Below are positions 20,472 to 54,563 of a DNA stretch of 64,000 bases, one piece after another. Location of the stretch: contig NC_005363.1 of NCBI RefSeq assembly GCF_000196175.1, positions 682,001 to 746,000 of the forward strand, written 5' to 3'. Position numbers and translations under genes: made by a program. The notes under the pieces were generated by a model, which did not search any database, was not told the origin of the DNA, and was given only the letters and a program-made list of their open reading frames with translations. The first letter of the stretch is position 1. Every line of letters starts with the position of its first letter. Source of the stretch: Bdellovibrio bacteriovorus HD100. Its GTDB lineage: Bacteria; Bdellovibrionota; Bdellovibrionia; Bdellovibrionales; Bdellovibrionaceae.

Positions 20472-21611
20472 ATGGAGTCCGCTTCCCAGGTAGAAAGTAG
20501 CGAGGGCACCGCCGTCGCGAAACCTGCTCCCGTAAAAAAGATCAAGATCATCGTCAGTGATCTCCATTTGGGGAAGGGCCGCCTGTTGGAAAAAGGCGGA
20601 ATCAATTCGCTTGAAGAATTCTATTACGGGGAAAAGCTTGTGGAGTTCATCCACTTCTATTCCACCGGTGTCTATCGCGACTATGAAGTCGAACTGATCA
20701 TCAACGGGGACTTCCTGAACTTCCTGCAGTGTGATTACAAAGGCCACTTCCTGTCCGTGATCACTGAATCCGTGACTTTGGAGATTTTGAAAGACTGCGT
20801 GAACGGGCACAAGGCCGTCTTCACAGCTTTGGCTGAATTCGCCGCAAAACCCGGCAACACCATCACCTACATCGTCGGTAACCATGATCAGGGGATGCTG
20901 TGGCCCGCCTGTCGCGCCTACCTGAATCAGGTCATCGGCACGCCGATTCGTTTTAAAAACATCGTTTACTTCTTTGATGGAGTTCACATCGAACACGGCC
21001 ATATGCATGAGGCCGCCAATCGTATGGACCCCAAAAAGTTCTTCCTAAAAAAGGATCTGGTGGAGCCGATCCTGAATCTGCCGTTTGGATCCCATTTCTT
21101 CCTGGAAGTCGTGTTGAAAATCAAACAACACTACCCCCATGTCGACAAGATCCGTCCTTTCGGCAAAATGGTCCGCTGGGCTTTCCTGAACGAAACCGGA
21201 ACAATGGTTCGCGCCTTCTTTATGGCCATGGGGTATTTCCTGAAAAGCATCCTGGTCAAGGATCCGCGCCGTCATTGGCCTTTGAAACGAATTATCCAGG
21301 TGATTGCCGAAAGCGCGATCTTCCCGGATTTGAGTGAATCAGCGCGTAAAATCCTGGGGGATGACCGCGTGCACACGGTGATCTTTGGCCACACCCATGT
21401 TTATCAGTATCGCCAGTGGTCCGAGAATAAAGAATATTTCAATACGGGAACATGGACTGAGATCACTTCTTTGGATATTGTGTCCTTGGGAAAGATCACG
21501 AAACTAACCTATGTTCTTATCGAATACCCTGAAGACGGAGGCCGGCCGCGAGGTAGGTTGAAGGAGTGGAAGGGTTACCACAAAATCGAAGAAGACGTAG
21601 CTATTTCCTAG
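20472..21611 (+). CDS. Calcineurin-like metallophosphoesterase
   Basis: A 379-residue protein with all five metallophosphatase blocks: SDLHLG (Asp30, His32), NGDFLNF, GNHDQG, HGHMHE and FGHTHVYQ. This is the LpxH-like/UDP-diacylglucosamine pyrophosphatase style of the superfamily, with a dinuclear metal site, but the length is well above LpxH and the substrate is uncertain. About 20 polar residues precede the domain. A hydrophobic stretch around residues 250-265 could touch the membrane. The start lies one base after the coiled-coil gene stop, so the two are translationally linked. The first of two structured intergenic repeats follows immediately. Confidence 0.85.
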   Translation: MESASQVESSEGTAVAKPAPVKKIKIIVSDLHLGKGRLLEKGGINSLEEFYYGEKLVEFIHFYSTGVYRDYEVELIINGDFLNFLQCDYKGHFLSVITESVTLEILKDCVNGHKAVFTALAEFAAKPGNTITYIVGNHDQGMLWPACRAYLNQVIGTPIRFKNIVYFFDGVHIEHGHMHEAANRMDPKKFFLKKDLVEPILNLPFGSHFFLEVVLKIKQHYPHVDKIRPFGKMVRWAFLNETGTMVRAFFMAMGYFLKSILVKDPRRHWPLKRIIQVIAESAIFPDLSESARKILGDDRVHTVIFGHTHVYQYRQWSENKEYFNTGTWTEITSLDIVSLGKITKLTYVLIEYPEDGGRPRGRLKEWKGYHKIEEDVAIS

Positions 21612-21617
21612 GCGGGC

Positions 21618-21731
21618 GATGAAAACGGCCCATCCGACTGCGTTGTCGGACAGCCTTCTCGCTTCGACGTGCTTGGAGCACGCCTGCGCTGCGAGGGCTG
21701 TCCTCCGCCTTGCGGCTGGACCGTTTTGATC
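21618..21731 (+). repeat. Multibranched structured intergenic repeat, copy A
   Basis: A 114-base element folds as follows: closing stem 21622-21632 with 21717-21727 (10 of 11 paired, extended by GAT/ATC across a G-G mismatch); hairpin TCCGAC/GTCGGA (21633-21650); stem CAGCC..CTCGC with GCGAG..GGCTG (21651-21662 with 21691-21700) enclosing hairpin CGTGC/GCACG (21668-21682); hairpin CCGC/GCGG (21705-21715). Copy B at 45280-45400 has the same layout with compensatory changes. It is not a tRNA. It could be a mobile REP-like element or an RNA. Confidence 0.75.
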
Positions 21732-21756
21732 ACCCTTTAAATCCCGGTAGTTTTCT

Positions 21757-21814
21757 GGCTGGCCCTTCGGGCGCCGCGGGGATGGGGAGTGCTGGCTCCC
21801 TTTGGGAGCGTCGC
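21757..21814 (+). repeat. Two tandem GCTGGC-type hairpins after copy A
   Basis: Units at 21759-21777 (GCTGGCCC, TTC, GGGCGCCGC) and 21791-21814 (GCTGGCTCCC, TTT, GGGAGCGTCGC) share a base but have different self-complementary tips. Three matching units follow copy B. Confidence 0.6.
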
Positions 21815-21842
21815 TGGGTTGGGACTAACTTTTTAGAAAGAG

Positions 21843-23069
21843 ATGCACGTTATGTTGGAGATTTCGCATTCGTTTCATAAAATTGATGAATCTGTTTTGG
21901 TGAAGTGTCAGGAGTCTTTGAAGTTGTTTTTGCAACGTAAAGAGATTGGCTTTCCGCAGGTGATGGAGCGTGTTTCTTTGTGGCAGCAGTCTTATAAAGT
22001 TGGGACTGAACTGGCGGAGAAATTTAAGAAGATTGTTATTGTTGGTTTGGGTGGAAGTTCGCTGGGGACTCGTGTCATTGCGGAAGTTTTCTGTGCTCGC
22101 AATATGTTCTTTGTCGACAATGTGGATGCTCTGGAATTTGAGACTTTGATTGAAGAGCTGGGGGACCTTAAAGAGGTTGCTTGGGTCTTTATTTCCAAGA
22201 GTGGAACTACGATTGAATCTTTGTGTGCTTTGGAGCTTGTGGATCAGATTTACACGGAAGAAAAACTGAATCTTCCCAAGCACAGTGTGGTTATTTCTGA
22301 AACCAAAGACAGCAGTTTGATGGCTTGGGCTCGCAAGCATTCTATTCCTACTTGTGAAATTCCTTTGGATGTTGGGGGGCGCTTCTCGGTGCTTTCTCCG
22401 GTGGGGATGATGCCGGCGGCGTTCCTGGGGTTGGATCTTGAAAAGTTCCGTGTCGGGGCGATGCGTGCCTTGAATGACACGGCGGTTGTGACTCAGACGA
22501 TGGCGCAAGTGGCGCAAAGTTATCAGCGGGAAGAATGGATCACTCTGCTTTGGATTTACAATTCTCGTATGAAGTCTTTCGGGGCTTGGTATCAGCAGCT
22601 GTGGGCGGAGTCTTTGGGGAAACCTGAAACTCGTGCGGGGAAACCGGCTCCGCGTGTGAGCACGCCGATGTCTGCTGTTGGGGCTTCGGATCAACATTCG
22701 ATTTTGCAGCAGGTGATGGAAGGAACCAAAGACAAGTTCGTTGTGTTCCAGCGTGTGGAAGAATCCGAGGCGGGTTCTTTGCGCATCAAGAAGGCTCAGT
22801 TCAAAGAAACTCAGGACCTTGAAGGTCGCACGATGGGTGAACTGCTGCGGGCAGAAGGTTTGGCCACGCAGGAGGCTTTGAATCAGAGTGGTGTTTCCAC
22901 GATGACTCTTAAGACTAAAGTCCTAGATGAGCACTCTTTGGGTTACATGTTCATGTTCTGGCAACTTGTGGTTGCGGGGCTTGGAGATTACCTGGAAATC
23001 GACGCCTTCAATCAGCCGGGTGTCGAGCTGGGCAAGAGACTAGCGAAAGAGAAATTGAAGAAAGCTTGA
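21843..23069 (+). CDS. pgi: Glucose-6-phosphate isomerase
   Basis: Pgi interconverts glucose 6-phosphate and fructose 6-phosphate in the cytoplasm. The 408-residue protein has the SIS-fold signatures GLGGSSLGTRV, FISKSGTTIESL and, near residue 280, SAVGASDQHSILQ with the catalytic His region, and ends with LGKRLAKEKL. It is shorter than the E. coli enzyme, like other compact bacterial forms. ATG 21843 is used; ATG 21852 is possible. Codons in the first half end mostly in T or G (43 of 60 plus-strand bases at 22021-22080 are G or T), unlike the gene before it, and the bias fades toward the 3' end. dgcB follows. Confidence 0.93.
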   Translation: MHVMLEISHSFHKIDESVLVKCQESLKLFLQRKEIGFPQVMERVSLWQQSYKVGTELAEKFKKIVIVGLGGSSLGTRVIAEVFCARNMFFVDNVDALEFETLIEELGDLKEVAWVFISKSGTTIESLCALELVDQIYTEEKLNLPKHSVVISETKDSSLMAWARKHSIPTCEIPLDVGGRFSVLSPVGMMPAAFLGLDLEKFRVGAMRALNDTAVVTQTMAQVAQSYQREEWITLLWIYNSRMKSFGAWYQQLWAESLGKPETRAGKPAPRVSTPMSAVGASDQHSILQQVMEGTKDKFVVFQRVEESEAGSLRIKKAQFKETQDLEGRTMGELLRAEGLATQEALNQSGVSTMTLKTKVLDEHSLGYMFMFWQLVVAGLGDYLEIDAFNQPGVELGKRLAKEKLKKA

Positions 23070-43639: not shown

Positions 43640-45274
43640 ATGAAGAATCTAGGACTGATGGGCGCATTGATCGCAGCGATCGCTCTGACAGGATGTCTGG
43701 ACAACGGCGGTGGCACCGAGGTGAAGCAAGACCTCAACAATGGTGACTTCAGCGTTATCACCGAGCCGGAAACGGGCTCAGGTGGCGGATCAAACGGTGG
43801 CAGCTCAGAAGAAGGCAGCACCGGTGGCGACAATGGCAGCGGTGGTGGCACAACCACTCCTTCAGAACCGGATGGTTTTGACATCAACAAAGGTGCAACT
43901 CTGACGGCGTCCACCAGCTTGAACCTTGATTTCTATCCTCCTTTCCACACGGCCTACACCAAGGTTTCTGAAAATGAATCCTGCGGTGGCGGTGCTTGGG
44001 TGGACTATGCGGACTCTGGCACTTTGTTAAGTTCCAAGACCAATCAGAATGTTCCTGTCAGTGTGCAGTTCCGCGATCATGATGGTCGCACCAGTTCCTG
44101 CTATGTTCGTCGTATCTATATTGACCAGATCGGTCCTGACATCGTGTTTGCAAAATACCCTTCCGCTCCGGTTGAAGAAGGCCTGGATGTGGAGCTGATC
44201 TTCACTGTGACTGACGCGGGCGCGGGTGTGGCTTCTGTGACTTGTTCCATGGGTTCTTCCACCAAAGCCTGCGCGGCCGGCCAGAACAAAATCCTTTTGC
44301 CGAAACTTGCCGGTGGCGATTACACCCTGAAAGTTTCTGCAACCGACAAACTGGGTCATGCTTCTGAAAAATCCATCTCTTTCAAAGTTTCCTCCATGTA
44401 CAAACAGATGGTGAACAACGTGAAAGTGAACGAATACCAGAAAGTGGATATTCTGTTCGTGATCGACAACTCGGGCTCTATGGAATACGAAAAAAAAAGC
44501 ATGGCGTCCCGTGTTCGTAACTTCCTGGATGTGGTGAAAGGTCTGGACTGGCAGATTGCCGTGACCACCACCGATCCAGTACACAAAACCCTGGGTGATG
44601 GCCGCTTGGTTCAGCTTTATAACAAACCCGGCCAGTATATTCTGACTTCTTCCATGAACGACACCGACGCCCGCAATACTCTGAGCAGCACCCTGCAAAG
44701 AAGTGAAACCGGCTCCGGCAGTGAGCAGGGTATCTTCGCCGCTTACCGCGCGATCGAACGCTCTTTGAGCGCTTCCGGCGGCAACGCGAACTTCATCCGT
44801 AACGATTCCCAACTGGCTGTTGTGGTGATCTCGGACGAAGATGAATCTGCCAACGGTGCGAAGAACGATCCTGCGAACTTTGTGAAGTTCGTGGCTGACA
44901 GCTTCGGTTCCCAGAAGGCCATGAGCTTCCATTCCATCATCGCTCGTCCTGACGATCAGGCGTGCTTGAAGGGTGAAGGTTATTCTGCCGGCTTCCGCTA
45001 TGAACAGATTTCCAAACTGACCGGTGGTGTGATCGGGGACGTGTGTGCATCTGACTACGCAGCCCAAGTTCAGGGTATCGCTGAAGGTGTGCGCAAGACT
45101 TTGAAATCCATCACGCTGACATGTGCGCCGGTAGTGGATGCCATGAGATCGATCCTGGTTTTGAAAGATGGGCAGGTTTATGATGGCACTCGCAAGATGG
45201 AAGGACTGAACCTGGTATTCGACCAAATGCTGCCACAGGGGAATTACGAAGTTTACTACTCATGCATTAAGTAA
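43640..45274 (+). CDS. Lipoprotein with von Willebrand factor A domain
   Basis: A 544-residue lipoprotein (lipobox Leu-Thr-Gly-Cys, Cys19) with a Gly/Ser/Glu-rich linker (about 30-80), an HYR-like Ig segment around 150-250 (VELIFTVTDAGAGVASVTC, GDYTLKVSATDKLGHAS) and a vWA domain from about 270. The MIDAS metal motif DNSGSM (Asp276, Ser278, Ser280) is intact, followed by VVVISDEDES. The domain probably binds a protein ligand through a metal ion at the cell surface. ATG 43640 has GGGAGAAGG. Copy B of the structured repeat begins 5 bases after its stop. Confidence 0.87.
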   Translation: MKNLGLMGALIAAIALTGCLDNGGGTEVKQDLNNGDFSVITEPETGSGGGSNGGSSEEGSTGGDNGSGGGTTTPSEPDGFDINKGATLTASTSLNLDFYPPFHTAYTKVSENESCGGGAWVDYADSGTLLSSKTNQNVPVSVQFRDHDGRTSSCYVRRIYIDQIGPDIVFAKYPSAPVEEGLDVELIFTVTDAGAGVASVTCSMGSSTKACAAGQNKILLPKLAGGDYTLKVSATDKLGHASEKSISFKVSSMYKQMVNNVKVNEYQKVDILFVIDNSGSMEYEKKSMASRVRNFLDVVKGLDWQIAVTTTDPVHKTLGDGRLVQLYNKPGQYILTSSMNDTDARNTLSSTLQRSETGSGSEQGIFAAYRAIERSLSASGGNANFIRNDSQLAVVVISDEDESANGAKNDPANFVKFVADSFGSQKAMSFHSIIARPDDQACLKGEGYSAGFRYEQISKLTGGVIGDVCASDYAAQVQGIAEGVRKTLKSITLTCAPVVDAMRSILVLKDGQVYDGTRKMEGLNLVFDQMLPQGNYEVYYSCIK

Positions 45275-45279
45275 GCTAC

Positions 45280-45400
45280 GGTTGGTGAAAAGGGCCCAAT
45301 CGACTGCGTTGTCGGGCCCTGTCCTCGCTCCGACGTGCTTGGAGCACGCCTCCGCTGCGGTAGGACCCTCCGCCTTGCGCTTGAACCCTTTTGACCAACC
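45280..45400 (+). repeat. Multibranched structured intergenic repeat, copy B
   Basis: Same architecture as copy A. Outer stem GGTTGGT (45280-45286) with ACCAACC (45394-45400), a G-G mismatch, AAAAGGG (45288-45294) with CCCTTTT (45386-45392), and CAA with TTG; hairpin CGAC/GTCG (45301-45314); stem GTCCT..CGC with GCG..AGGAC (45321-45328 with 45357-45366); identical inner hairpin CGTGC TTGGA GCACG (45334-45348); hairpin CGC/GCG (45371-45379). Several stems differ from copy A but stay paired, including the same G-G mismatch in the outer stem. Confidence 0.75.
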
Positions 45401-45423
45401 GACTTTCTAGCGGTTGGTTTTTT
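45394..45423 (+). terminator. Terminator that shares an arm with repeat copy B
   Basis: ACCAACCG (45394-45401) pairs with CGGTTGGT (45411-45418), loop of 9, followed by six T. The left arm is also the right arm of the repeat's outer stem, so the two folds exclude each other. Confidence 0.8.
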
Positions 45424-45444
45424 GCGTTTTCGGGGTGCGGGGAG

Positions 45445-45527
45445 GCTGGCGCTGCGCGCGCCGCGGGGTTTTGGCTGGCCCGCTGGGCGCCGCCTTTTTG
45501 GAGAGCGCTGGCGCTATCGCGCGCCGC
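45445..45527 (+). repeat. Three tandem GCTGGC-type hairpins after copy B
   Basis: Units at 45445-45464, 45474-45493 and 45507-45527 share GCTGGC and GCGCCGC (or GCCGC) ends while the tips differ: GC/GC, CC/GG and GC/GC. A degenerate fourth hairpin (TGCG/CGCA) lies near 45538-45550 beside the stop of the cytochrome gene. Confidence 0.6.
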
Positions 45528-45554
45528 TTTTGGGAGGCTTGCGTTCGCGCAGAG

Positions 45555-46697
45555 CTATTTTAGGATTTGGTTGAGGGTTGTGGCTACTTCGGCGGATTCG
45601 TTGATGACTCGTTGGCTGATGGCTGGGTTTTCCAGGAAATAGCCGAAGGCTCGGATGATTTGGGTGTTTTTTTGGTCGGGGCTTACGTTTGTTAAGTCAT
45701 AAGCTGGGTTTTTGTAGGCGTGGGTATTCCACAGACTTTCCAGGTTTAGATCTGTGCGGTTTCTTTCCAGCCATACTCTTGCGGGTTGGGCTACGTGGCA
45801 ACTGGCGCAGTCCATGTTTTCTGGGTTGAAGCTGTGCGGGTCTTCGGCGCGGTGGATGGCGCGCAGTTCTTTTCTGAGCAGGTCTTCGTTTCCTACTTTC
45901 ATGCGGGCTGAATTGCCGATGACTTTATTGAATGAATCTTCGCCGGTGGCTTCGGGGGAAATCAGGCCGCGTTCGAAGTGGTCTGATGGGACTGCGAAGT
46001 TGACGAAGGCTTGGGCTGATCTGTCTACGCGTGGGATCTTCATCAATTTTAACTGACCATTGCGCACTTCAAAGCCCTGGAAGGACCACATGTCGCCGGC
46101 GCCTCGGACCACCATCGCAGTGATGCGGGTTAGATTTGCAGGGCCTGCGTATTTGCGCACGATTTGGTTGAACTCTAACAACGCTGGGGATTTGTCGGCT
46201 TGTACGGCCCATGCGGGGTGAACCTGCAATGGCAGACCTTTGGTTTCTACTTTGTTGCGGGTTTTCCACGCCATCAGATCTTTTGTCAGGGAATCAAAGT
46301 CGGCGTCGGTCAGCACATAAAAACTGTGAAGGGCCGCATCGACCGTCTGTACGCGGTTGCGGAAGCCTGGTTCCAGCGGTTGCCACACCAAGCGGATTTG
46401 TTTTTGGCAGGACTGTGGGGTTGGCAGGGGGAAGCACGGGTCGATGCGCACGGCGATCACGCGCAGGGATGTGGCCACGTCGTTTTCACTCATCACCGGA
46501 GTCAGTGGGGGAATCGTGCCCATGAAGGCCGGGTTCAGCAGCGGGCCGCCGCGGCCGGGAGTGGTGATACCCATCAGATTGTCGTCGCCAAAACGGGCTG
46601 GCAACGGCATCAGATAAGAGACGTCATTCAGATCCCAGGCAGCGTTGGCCTGAAGACCCAGGAACAGGGCAAAAACGAATGCGAATTTGGCTTTCAT
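45555..46697 (-). CDS. Secreted c-type cytochrome-like protein
   Basis: A 380-residue protein with a signal peptide (cleavage near Ala-Asn-Ala, residue 19) and one heme attachment site CASCH (Cys297, Cys300, His301) in NPENMDCASCHVAQPARVW. The remaining 290 N-terminal residues are not a recognised domain. It is probably a periplasmic protein with one covalent heme; no distant Met ligand is certain. ATG 46697 was chosen for the signal peptide over a start 105 bases upstream. Its 3' third has unusual A/C-rich codons: 47 of 60 plus-strand bases at 45661-45720 are G or T, against 30 of 60 at 46021-46080. Confidence 0.8.
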   Translation of the reverse strand: MKAKFAFVFALFLGLQANAAWDLNDVSYLMPLPARFGDDNLMGITTPGRGGPLLNPAFMGTIPPLTPVMSENDVATSLRVIAVRIDPCFPLPTPQSCQKQIRLVWQPLEPGFRNRVQTVDAALHSFYVLTDADFDSLTKDLMAWKTRNKVETKGLPLQVHPAWAVQADKSPALLEFNQIVRKYAGPANLTRITAMVVRGAGDMWSFQGFEVRNGQLKLMKIPRVDRSAQAFVNFAVPSDHFERGLISPEATGEDSFNKVIGNSARMKVGNEDLLRKELRAIHRAEDPHSFNPENMDCASCHVAQPARVWLERNRTDLNLESLWNTHAYKNPAYDLTNVSPDQKNTQIIRAFGYFLENPAISQRVINESAEVATTLNQILK

Positions 46698-46825
46698 GCG
46701 ACGCAAATTTCCATTTTTGATGCGCCAATTCAACAAGATTCCCAAAAAGCGCCGGGCCAAGGACCTAATTGAAAATGAAATAAACGCGCTTCGTGTTATC
46801 ATGGGTTCTTACGGAAAGGTGTGGA

Positions 46826-52958: not shown

Positions 52959-54563
52959 CTAGATCAACTCCACCAATAGTTTGCCTGGGTTTTCGATGCG
53001 GCCGATGAAGGCAGCAAGGAATCTTGCAGCGACAGCGCCGTCGATCAAACGGTGATCGGCAGTCATCGTGTAGTTCATAACTTTAATCGCGGAAACCTGG
53101 CCGTTTTTCAGAACCACTTTTTCGTCGATTTTGTACATGCCCAGGATCGCCACTTCAGGGTGGTTGATCACCGGAGTCGCGTATGTGCCACCGATAGAAC
53201 CGATGTTCGTTACAGTGATAGTTGCACCCTTCATTTCATCCGGTTTCAACTTGCCGTCACGAGCACGCTTGGAAAGATCCAGGATCTCTTTGGAGATTTC
53301 CAGGATGGATTTCTGGTCTGCGTTTTTGATCACTGGAACGACAAGGCCGTTTGGAGTGTCTGCTGCGAAGCCCAGGTTGAAGTACTTTTTGTAAACGATT
53401 TCGCCCGCTGCATCGTCGATGGAGGCATTGAACATCGGGAATTCACGGATTGTTGCGATCAAAGCCTTCATGATGATTGGAAGGTAAGTGATCTTCGTGC
53501 CGTTTTTCTCTGCGTGTTCTTTCAGGCTTTCGCGAAGAGCAACCATCGCATCCACTTTCGCTTCATCCATGATGGTGAAGTGCGGGATCACGTGTTTAGA
53601 ACGCTGCATGTTTTCAGCGATCTTCTTGCGGATGCCGATCATAGGAACGCGCTCTTCCGCTGCGCCTGCCGGGCCTTGGTAAGCTGGTTTAGGAATAGTC
53701 ATGGAAGCTGCTGCTGGAGCCGCTTTCGCTGCTGCCGGAGCTGCGCCACCACCGGAAGACATAACGTCTTCACGAGTCACGCGACCTGCAAGGCCAGTTC
53801 CGGTAAGAGAGTTGATATCAACTCCCATTTCACGAGCCAGACGACGAGTCGCCGGAGTCGCCAGAACTTTGGAGTCTGCCACAGGTGGGAAGATGTCGCT
53901 GGAAGCAGTTGCCACTGGAGCTGCTGCCTTCGTAGCAGGTGCTGCTGCCGGAGCCGGAGCTGCCGCTGCTGCAGGAGCCGCTTTCGGAGCCGCTGCGCCA
54001 CCTGCACCCTCAAGGATGATCATGGTGGAACCGACTTTTACAACGTCGCCGGATTTGAATTTCAATTCTTTTACAACACCAGCTACTGGAGTCGGAACTT
54101 CCACAGTCGCTTTGTCCGTCAGAACTTCAGCAATCGCCTGGTCTGCTTTTACAGAGTCACCTGGTTTAACCAACCATTTAACCAGTTCGCCTTCAGTCAC
54201 GCCCTCGCCCAGTTCAGGAAGTTTAACATCCTGAGCTTTACCGCCACCTGCAGCCGGAGCTGGAGTGGAAGCTGCTGGAGCCGGAGCTGCCGCTGCCGGT
54301 TGAGCGGCTGCAGGTTTTGCAGCGCCTGCACCATCAAGAGTGATCATCGTCGCTCCGACTTTAACAACGTCGCCGGATTTGAATTTAAGATCTTTTACGA
54401 CACCCGCAACCGGTGACGGAACCTCTACCGTTGCTTTGTCAGTCAATACTTCTGCGATAGCCTGGTCCGCTTTGACCGCATCGCCTGGTTTTACCAACCA
54501 TTTTACCAATTCACCTTCAGTAACGCCTTCTCCAAGCTCGGGCAGTTTCACATCAGTTGCCAT
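52959..54563 (-). CDS. Dihydrolipoamide acyltransferase (E2) with two lipoyl domains
   Basis: The 534-residue E2 core subunit has two nearly identical lipoyl domains (about 2-78 and 111-188, lipoyl lysines Lys43 and Lys151 in TDKATVEVP), Ala/Pro-rich swinging linkers, a peripheral-subunit-binding domain (VLATPATRRLAREMGVDI) and a catalytic domain ending in TADHRLIDGAVAARFL with the active His and Asp. It could be the pyruvate or branched-chain type; sequence alone does not decide. ATG 54563 starts the lipoyl domain; ATG 54590 upstream lacks a site. Upstream E1 genes are absent, so they map elsewhere. Confidence 0.93.
   Translation of the reverse strand: MATDVKLPELGEGVTEGELVKWLVKPGDAVKADQAIAEVLTDKATVEVPSPVAGVVKDLKFKSGDVVKVGATMITLDGAGAAKPAAAQPAAAAPAPAASTPAPAAGGGKAQDVKLPELGEGVTEGELVKWLVKPGDSVKADQAIAEVLTDKATVEVPTPVAGVVKELKFKSGDVVKVGSTMIILEGAGGAAAPKAAPAAAAAPAPAAAPATKAAAPVATASSDIFPPVADSKVLATPATRRLAREMGVDINSLTGTGLAGRVTREDVMSSGGGAAPAAAKAAPAAASMTIPKPAYQGPAGAAEERVPMIGIRKKIAENMQRSKHVIPHFTIMDEAKVDAMVALRESLKEHAEKNGTKITYLPIIMKALIATIREFPMFNASIDDAAGEIVYKKYFNLGFAADTPNGLVVPVIKNADQKSILEISKEILDLSKRARDGKLKPDEMKGATITVTNIGSIGGTYATPVINHPEVAILGMYKIDEKVVLKNGQVSAIKVMNYTMTADHRLIDGAVAARFLAAFIGRIENPGKLLVELI

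Follow-up and report, generated by a model that had tools for sequence, protein, structure and literature searches.

Strand asymmetry of base composition is well known and is normally a weak, chromosome-wide trend. In its replication- and transcription-associated forms, described as GC and TA skew, it is the leading or non-template strand that gains G and T. The repeat family described here from Bdellovibrio bacteriovorus is followed by a bias in this same direction, but one that is local, starts at the repeat, is much more pronounced, with up to 95% at four-fold sites, and extends over ~1 kb only. A one-sided effect that starts at a structured site and leaves a keto-rich non-template strand is also a feature of R-loop-linked mutagenesis at switch regions and of non-template deamination; here, however, a hybrid is only putative, there is no current hypermutation and recent C to T changes are not raised. 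REP/BIME elements with their RAYT (Y1) proteins resemble the repeat in that there are many intergenic palindromes directly after stop codons, but at ~123 nt the repeat is long for a REP and has conserved inner parts, Y1 numbers do not track repeats, and the strand that folds differs from the lagging template. Diversity-generating retroelements likewise combine directional change with an adjacent structured DNA site, but most carriers of the repeat are without a reverse transcriptase, A and C are both affected, and no template repeat was seen. Structured intergenic RNAs have been described from this very species, namely merRNA and eight attack-phase sRNAs (PMC3627812); the word "repeat" is absent from the text of that paper, and neither the window defined below nor the repeat loci gave an Rfam match at the gathering score. 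The literature that we searched contains no account of the repeat or of its downstream effect, and a repeat-anchored, polar, near-saturating local strand asymmetry with presence/absence support is new as far as we have found.

The stretch of DNA that was analysed (the window) comprises 64 kb, positions 682001-746000 of the 3,782,950-bp chromosome, and contains two copies of the repeat, A and B (Table 1). It had been claimed that the plus strand is G+T rich downstream of both, and on recounting all seven of the 60-bp counts cited are exact: 47, 41 and 30 of 60 beyond B, 43, 36 and 31 beyond A, and 30 upstream of A at 20641-20700. The 60-bp bins of the window have a mean G+T of 31.2 (sd 4.5), with counts of at least 41, 43 and 47 reached in 2.2%, 0.7% and 0.04% of them. 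The two most G+T-rich 500-bp windows in the 64 kb, 45404-45903 (0.68) and 21745-22244 (0.658), both start at the 3' (right-hand) end of a repeat copy. At four-fold sites the G+T fraction in successive 300-bp steps is 0.95, 0.78, 0.94, 0.81, 0.73 and then 0.48 from copy A, and 0.95, 0.82, 0.72 and 0.56 from copy B; the first 300 bp after each copy hold 20 four-fold sites with no A and a single C on the plus strand. Upstream of the copies the values are 0.41-0.67 and the genes are ordinary, and downstream the composition has become normal again at ~1.5 kb from A and ~0.9 kb from B. With 191 and 158 matched control genes, respectively, A gave a z of 3.6 and B a z of 4.6, both above every control, and the observation of one-sided G+T tracts after A and B is confirmed as real. 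GC-rich mini-hairpins (GGCTGGC...GCGCC) are also present in the intergenic part of both tracts (window 45440-45540 and 21760-21810).

Table 1. Positions of the repeat copies, their tracts and neighbouring genes, and of a second hairpin family (window coordinates unless a genome is named).
Feature	Position	Strand	Remarks
Repeat copy A	21613..21735	+	Outer-stem limits; covariance-model match 21608-21741; given strand is the leading-strand orientation
Repeat copy B	45279..45401	+	Outer-stem limits; covariance-model match 45274-45406
G+T-rich tract after A	21736..23069	+	Four-fold G+T 0.95 down to 0.73; normal beyond ~1.5 kb
G+T-rich tract after B	45402..46300	+	Enters minus-strand gene; plus-strand four-fold G+T 0.95, 0.82, 0.72, then about 0.56
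Calcineurin-like phosphoesterase gene, directly upstream of A	20472..21611	+	Stop codon touches repeat; unskewed
Phosphoglucose isomerase gene (pgi), downstream of A	21843..23069	+	Skewed along entire length
Gene directly upstream of B, without Pfam match	43640..45274	+	Stop codon touches repeat; unskewed
Convergent gene downstream of B, without Pfam match	45555..46760	-	Skewed part is the 3' half
Terminator-like hairpin at B (candidate, read from sequence)	45395..45423	+	Right arm of repeat CCAACCG + CGGTTGG, then TTTTTT
Second hairpin family copy	G000 1267145-1267313	+	
Second hairpin family copy	G000 2886561-2886726	-	

A covariance model of the ~123-nt repeat was built from 18 copies, and a search of the genome with this model located 31 copies of the same sense. 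The 16 plus-strand copies all lie at 0.32-1.59 Mb and the 15 minus-strand copies all lie at 2.00-3.67 Mb. By the sign of the skew, the origin lies near 0 and replication ends at 1.90-1.94 Mb, which means that every one of the 31 copies points in the direction of replication. Nearly all copies in the other complete genomes examined are split by replication direction in the same way; the exceptions in relatives are mostly weak inverted partner copies, with a few in G017. Most copies start at the stop codon of a co-directional leading-strand gene, and at polymorphic sites the place of the repeat is taken in a relative by a terminator hairpin or by a different hairpin repeat. Terminator-like hairpins also adjoin several copies, B included, where the hairpin may compete with the outer stem of the repeat. 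With regard to mobility, we rejected Y1/RAYT as the mobiliser, as Y1 counts do not follow repeat counts (0 Y1 and 42 copies in G012; 12 Y1 and 21 copies in G022). An origin from a reverse transcriptase (diversity-generating retroelement, retron or group II intron) was also rejected, as RVT_1 is missing in most carriers: it is absent from G002, G012, G015, G017 and G023 and has one weak hit in the B. bacteriovorus genome (G000). In G012 there are head-to-tail tandem copies spaced about 136-138 bp apart (685345/685483, 813333/813470, 961270/961408 and 1669362/1669498). The exact repeat core was found in the genome collection in strain kdesi and in one contig labelled as an Acidobacteriota MAG (L284), an occurrence outside Bdellovibrio that would reflect mis-binning or transfer; none of the viral contigs scanned contains it.

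The original prediction called for an examination of other genomic copies, which we scored as z values at four-fold sites with controls matched for gene strand and gene end, using sequence rather than expression data from one genome per species and our own gene calls. The 31 copies of G000 average a z of +0.84 (se 0.28) on the downstream side, as against -0.45 (se 0.18) on the upstream side. The effect is uneven, with 7 of 31 above the 95th percentile and one clearly opposite, and A and B are the extremes among copies for downstream G+T excess. The mean downstream excess recurs in five Bdellovibrio genomes and is not found upstream. For example, copies directly behind a co-directional gene in these genomes give +1.28 (se 0.15, n=91) downstream and -0.46 (se 0.12) upstream, and all copies together give downstream means of 0.92 (G000), 1.22 (G002), 0.58 (G012), 1.33 (G017) and 1.07 (G023), where G000, G002 and G023 have many sites in common and are not independent. 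Leading-strand G+T in G000 goes from 50-52% upstream to 59.7% in the first 250 bp downstream (58.2-58.7% in three other genomes) and is close to baseline again by 2 kb. Tracts are about 0.25 kb long on average and reach ~1.3 kb, and extreme G+T-bias windows are strongly concentrated behind repeats (about 9 of 32). It is hardly credible that chance, codon usage or terminator T-runs create this pattern. The unevenness among copies and the T-runs in the first 250 bp would fit such an origin, but controls matched for gene strand, gene end and 3' intergenic DNA do not give the effect, and separate genomes give the same result. In four genomes the intergenic DNA downstream of the repeat has 57.7-61.2% G+T, compared with 52.8% (sd 5.1, n=96) in the 3' intergenic DNA of leading-strand genes without a repeat. 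Codon preference had already been discounted in the original prediction, and indeed genes on both strands are affected, with a z, for copies directly behind a co-directional gene, of 1.22 where the downstream gene is co-directional and 1.33 where it is opposite.

Comparison across species provides natural pairs with and without the repeat. We compared pgi at locus A and the gene at locus B across 24 Bdellovibrio genomes; these loci, like the third locus below, were picked for strong skew, which is not the case for the genome-wide averages. The pgi gene is skewed in exactly the five genomes that carry the repeat (four-fold G+T of 0.85, 0.83, 0.83, 0.70 and 0.70, versus 0.48-0.66 in 17 full-length genes without it), and one of these carriers, G017, looks like a separate lineage. 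Coding-strand G+T of the locus B gene is 0.31-0.35 with the repeat and 0.55-0.69 without. This shows that the tract at A and B goes with the repeat across species. At the third locus, an enoyl-CoA hydratase gene accompanied by a degenerate copy has 0.73-0.81; where that copy is missing the values are mostly 0.44-0.68, and the three genomes that deviate are G008, G009 and G001, of which G001 reaches 0.75 with no hairpin visible. A preference of the repeat for landing next to DNA that is already G+T-rich is largely refuted and very improbable. Such a preference would account for site 1213412, where G023 is without the repeat and yet just as rich in G+T (60.8 vs 61.6%), but repeat-free orthologues are normal at A and B, and the DNA downstream of the G023 copy at 3452291 has 64.8% G+T as opposed to 54.4% at the empty G000 site. 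Empty sites in relatives were sampled in part. The view that a directional process starts at the element is thus largely supported, as the skew is polar, begins at the element, is absent upstream and tracks presence and absence across species. In G002 about 1.1 kb of extra DNA (L149, 363-1498) lies between repeat B and the still-skewed neighbouring gene, as though it had entered when the skew was already in place.

The skew also appears to depend on neighbouring transcription. Copies with an adjacent divergent upstream gene, all of which are followed by an opposite-strand gene, are without downstream skew: their z is -0.68 (se 0.35, n=12, ~7 independent loci), as against +1.28 for copies directly behind a co-directional gene, and G+T at 1-250 bp downstream is 50.3% versus 60.1%. 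We tentatively favour a slow bias that is tied to transcription past the hairpin and is R-loop-like as the cause of the downstream skew. RNA polymerase would exit the upstream gene and continue beyond the hairpin, where the RNA that it makes is untranslated; RNA-DNA hybrids could then form, keeping the non-template (leading, plus) strand open and the template strand covered; and in the long run C to T and A to G substitutions would be favoured on the plus strand, in part because the minus strand is spared. The orientation of the copies would arise if structures of this kind do least damage where transcription is co-directional with replication, or from the insertion mode of the repeat. This reading is favoured by the occurrence of the effect on both gene strands with none upstream, by the presence/absence match at A and B, by the loss of skew next to an adjacent divergent upstream gene, and by the case of G009, in which a symmetric hairpin flanked by convergent genes has skew on both outgoing sides (see below). 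Arguing against transcription is the observation that G017 copies with a more distant divergent upstream gene are strongly skewed in 3 of 4 cases with no co-directional ORF of at least 30 aa ending at them, as well as the presence of terminator-like hairpins at several copies. A related proposal, which we consider plausible but somewhat short of probable, is that the repeat emits a polar strand-specific substitution bias into the adjacent gene, whichever gene that is. If true, silent A and C fall to near zero within 300 bp with the protein kept, and the position of a repeat alone reshapes local codon usage.

A change from A and C to G and T on one strand is the axis of single-strand-linked transitions, which further favours transcription-linked bias, as does the rate of change downstream. 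In co-directional genes at 0-1200 bp downstream, pooled change away from G/T is slower (0.136 vs 0.211 far away) and change towards G/T is unchanged (0.263 vs 0.272), which is what sparing of the minus strand would produce. The two mechanisms offered as examples in the original prediction fare differently. C deamination is not supported by the proposed comparison of synonymous substitutions: recent substitutions near the repeat, polarised among G000, G002 and G023 with few genes and modest power, show no excess of C to T, and synonymous divergence within 500 bp downstream is not raised (co-directional 0.193 vs 0.252, opposite 0.232 vs 0.282). Both results also count against a transcription-linked bias. 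The R-loop stands as a candidate, with copies in opposite-strand operons being without skew. The tracts do not have the properties of an active C to T deamination hotspot, a result of modest power, and ongoing hypermutation downstream of the repeat was rejected since none is seen in recent changes. An excess of C to G at long distance was dropped as an argument against deamination because silent sites are near saturation there. It is rather improbable that the skew is a relic of a past episode in which error-prone copying during spread or re-copying of the repeat (by a reverse transcriptase, translesion synthesis or HUH-nickase synthesis) skewed a flank that is now decaying. In three close species there are 74 changes towards G/T and 98 away at 0-500 bp downstream, as decay would produce, but by our estimate this imbalance is not significant after allowing for parsimony bias. 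A young insertion at 765694 in G002 is unskewed, which also fits a relic; however, many changes made in a single burst would have disrupted the pgi protein, five repeat-rich genomes have no reverse transcriptase, and Y1 counts do not track repeats.

The repeat also has a conserved fold. Pairing is maintained in 95.1% of cells over 109 copies, with 566 double-change cells observed versus 152 in shuffles, and among outer-stem mispairs on the plus strand there are 40 A·C, which are wobble pairs on the minus strand, versus 4 G·T. The mean RNA minimum free energy is -65.2 for the minus strand and -54.6 for the plus strand, and in 106 of 108 copies it is the minus strand that has the greater stability, with a mean difference of 10.7 kcal/mol (1.0 in shuffles), and the consensus (alifold) energy is -57.2 on minus versus -24.9 on plus. 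The minus-strand fold contains 470 G·U and 31 A·C cells. The repeat thus has the covarying helices and one-strand G·U pairs looked for in a structured RNA, and its conserved fold is on the minus strand, opposite to the given leading-strand orientation. This fold is not that of the plus-sense RNA, argues against transcription-linked bias, and is left unexplained by an R-loop-like mechanism. Selection on a minus-strand RNA would accommodate it: head-on or antisense transcripts would carry the repeat as their structured 3' part, and its flank, rich in A/C and poor in G, would load Rho or serve as an unstructured leader, so that head-on transcription is kept out of leading-strand genes. The fold, the G·U pairs and the stability all point to the minus strand, skew is missing where minus-strand transcription must continue to the next minus-strand gene, and synonymous divergence is not raised. 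Rho prefers pyrimidines, and despite this preference U is down and A is up on the minus strand; moreover, a near-saturating effect over 0.9-1.3 kb of conserved coding genes is much to ask of selection at silent sites. We regard this explanation as unlikely.

Replication itself could also be responsible, if forks are perturbed on meeting a hairpin in one of the template strands, such that terminus-side DNA stays single-stranded on the lagging template or such that a low-fidelity polymerase copies the leading strand. The co-orientation of all G000 copies and nearly all copies in relatives is in agreement with this, as is skew that is confined to the terminus side and decays within about 2 kb. 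Other long inverted repeats are also keto-rich on the leading strand of their terminus side (59.4, se 2.2, vs 48.2, se 1.0; n=6). However, leading-oriented copies within opposite-strand operons are without skew, and a purely replicative cause does not predict its loss next to a divergent gene. Additionally, the symmetric G009 hairpin acts both ways, ordinary replication skew here amounts to a few per cent only, and divergence is not raised, which makes a replicative cause fairly improbable. A fixed Okazaki start was rejected, as it at most doubles exposure and the composition implies a rate ratio that we estimate at 4 or more.

Two hairpins elsewhere that are not homologous to the repeat give the same skew. 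In G008 a 31-bp inverted repeat of a third kind (L188, 1157-1315) lies upstream of the enoyl-CoA hydratase gene, which has 80% G+T at four-fold sites with the skew decaying over ~0.8 kb. In G009 the enoyl-CoA hydratase gene has the opposite skew and a different palindrome at its 3' end. This symmetric palindrome, AAAGGTGCCTGCTTC... (L192, 2318-2382), lies between convergent genes with keto skew running outward on both sides, at 69% on the plus strand to the right over 100 bp and 70-73% on the minus strand to the left over 200 bp. A hairpin like AAAGGTGCCTGCTTC, namely AGGTGCCTGG, fills a repeat site in G002, and the motif occurs at another such site in G000/G023. The second hairpin family in G000 has arms of 33-34 bp that vary per copy around the conserved core CTCTCGGACAGTCCTCGCG; it is followed by a one-sided G+T-rich tract and is leading-oriented in 8 of 9 credible hits. 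These hairpins, together with the replication co-orientation of the 31 copies and the minus-strand fold, go beyond what was originally predicted.

We have here a local strand asymmetry that is switched on by a defined element, and the natural presence/absence pairs make its cause testable. The results also call for caution, as extreme codon usage can be due to a neighbour and need not reflect expression or gene transfer. To what is known of predatory bacteria they add a family of structured repeats that is fully replication-oriented and apparently undescribed. Elsewhere in the window (53994-54554) there is a 237-nt direct repeat, 80% identical and with a spacing of 324, within a minus-strand gene.
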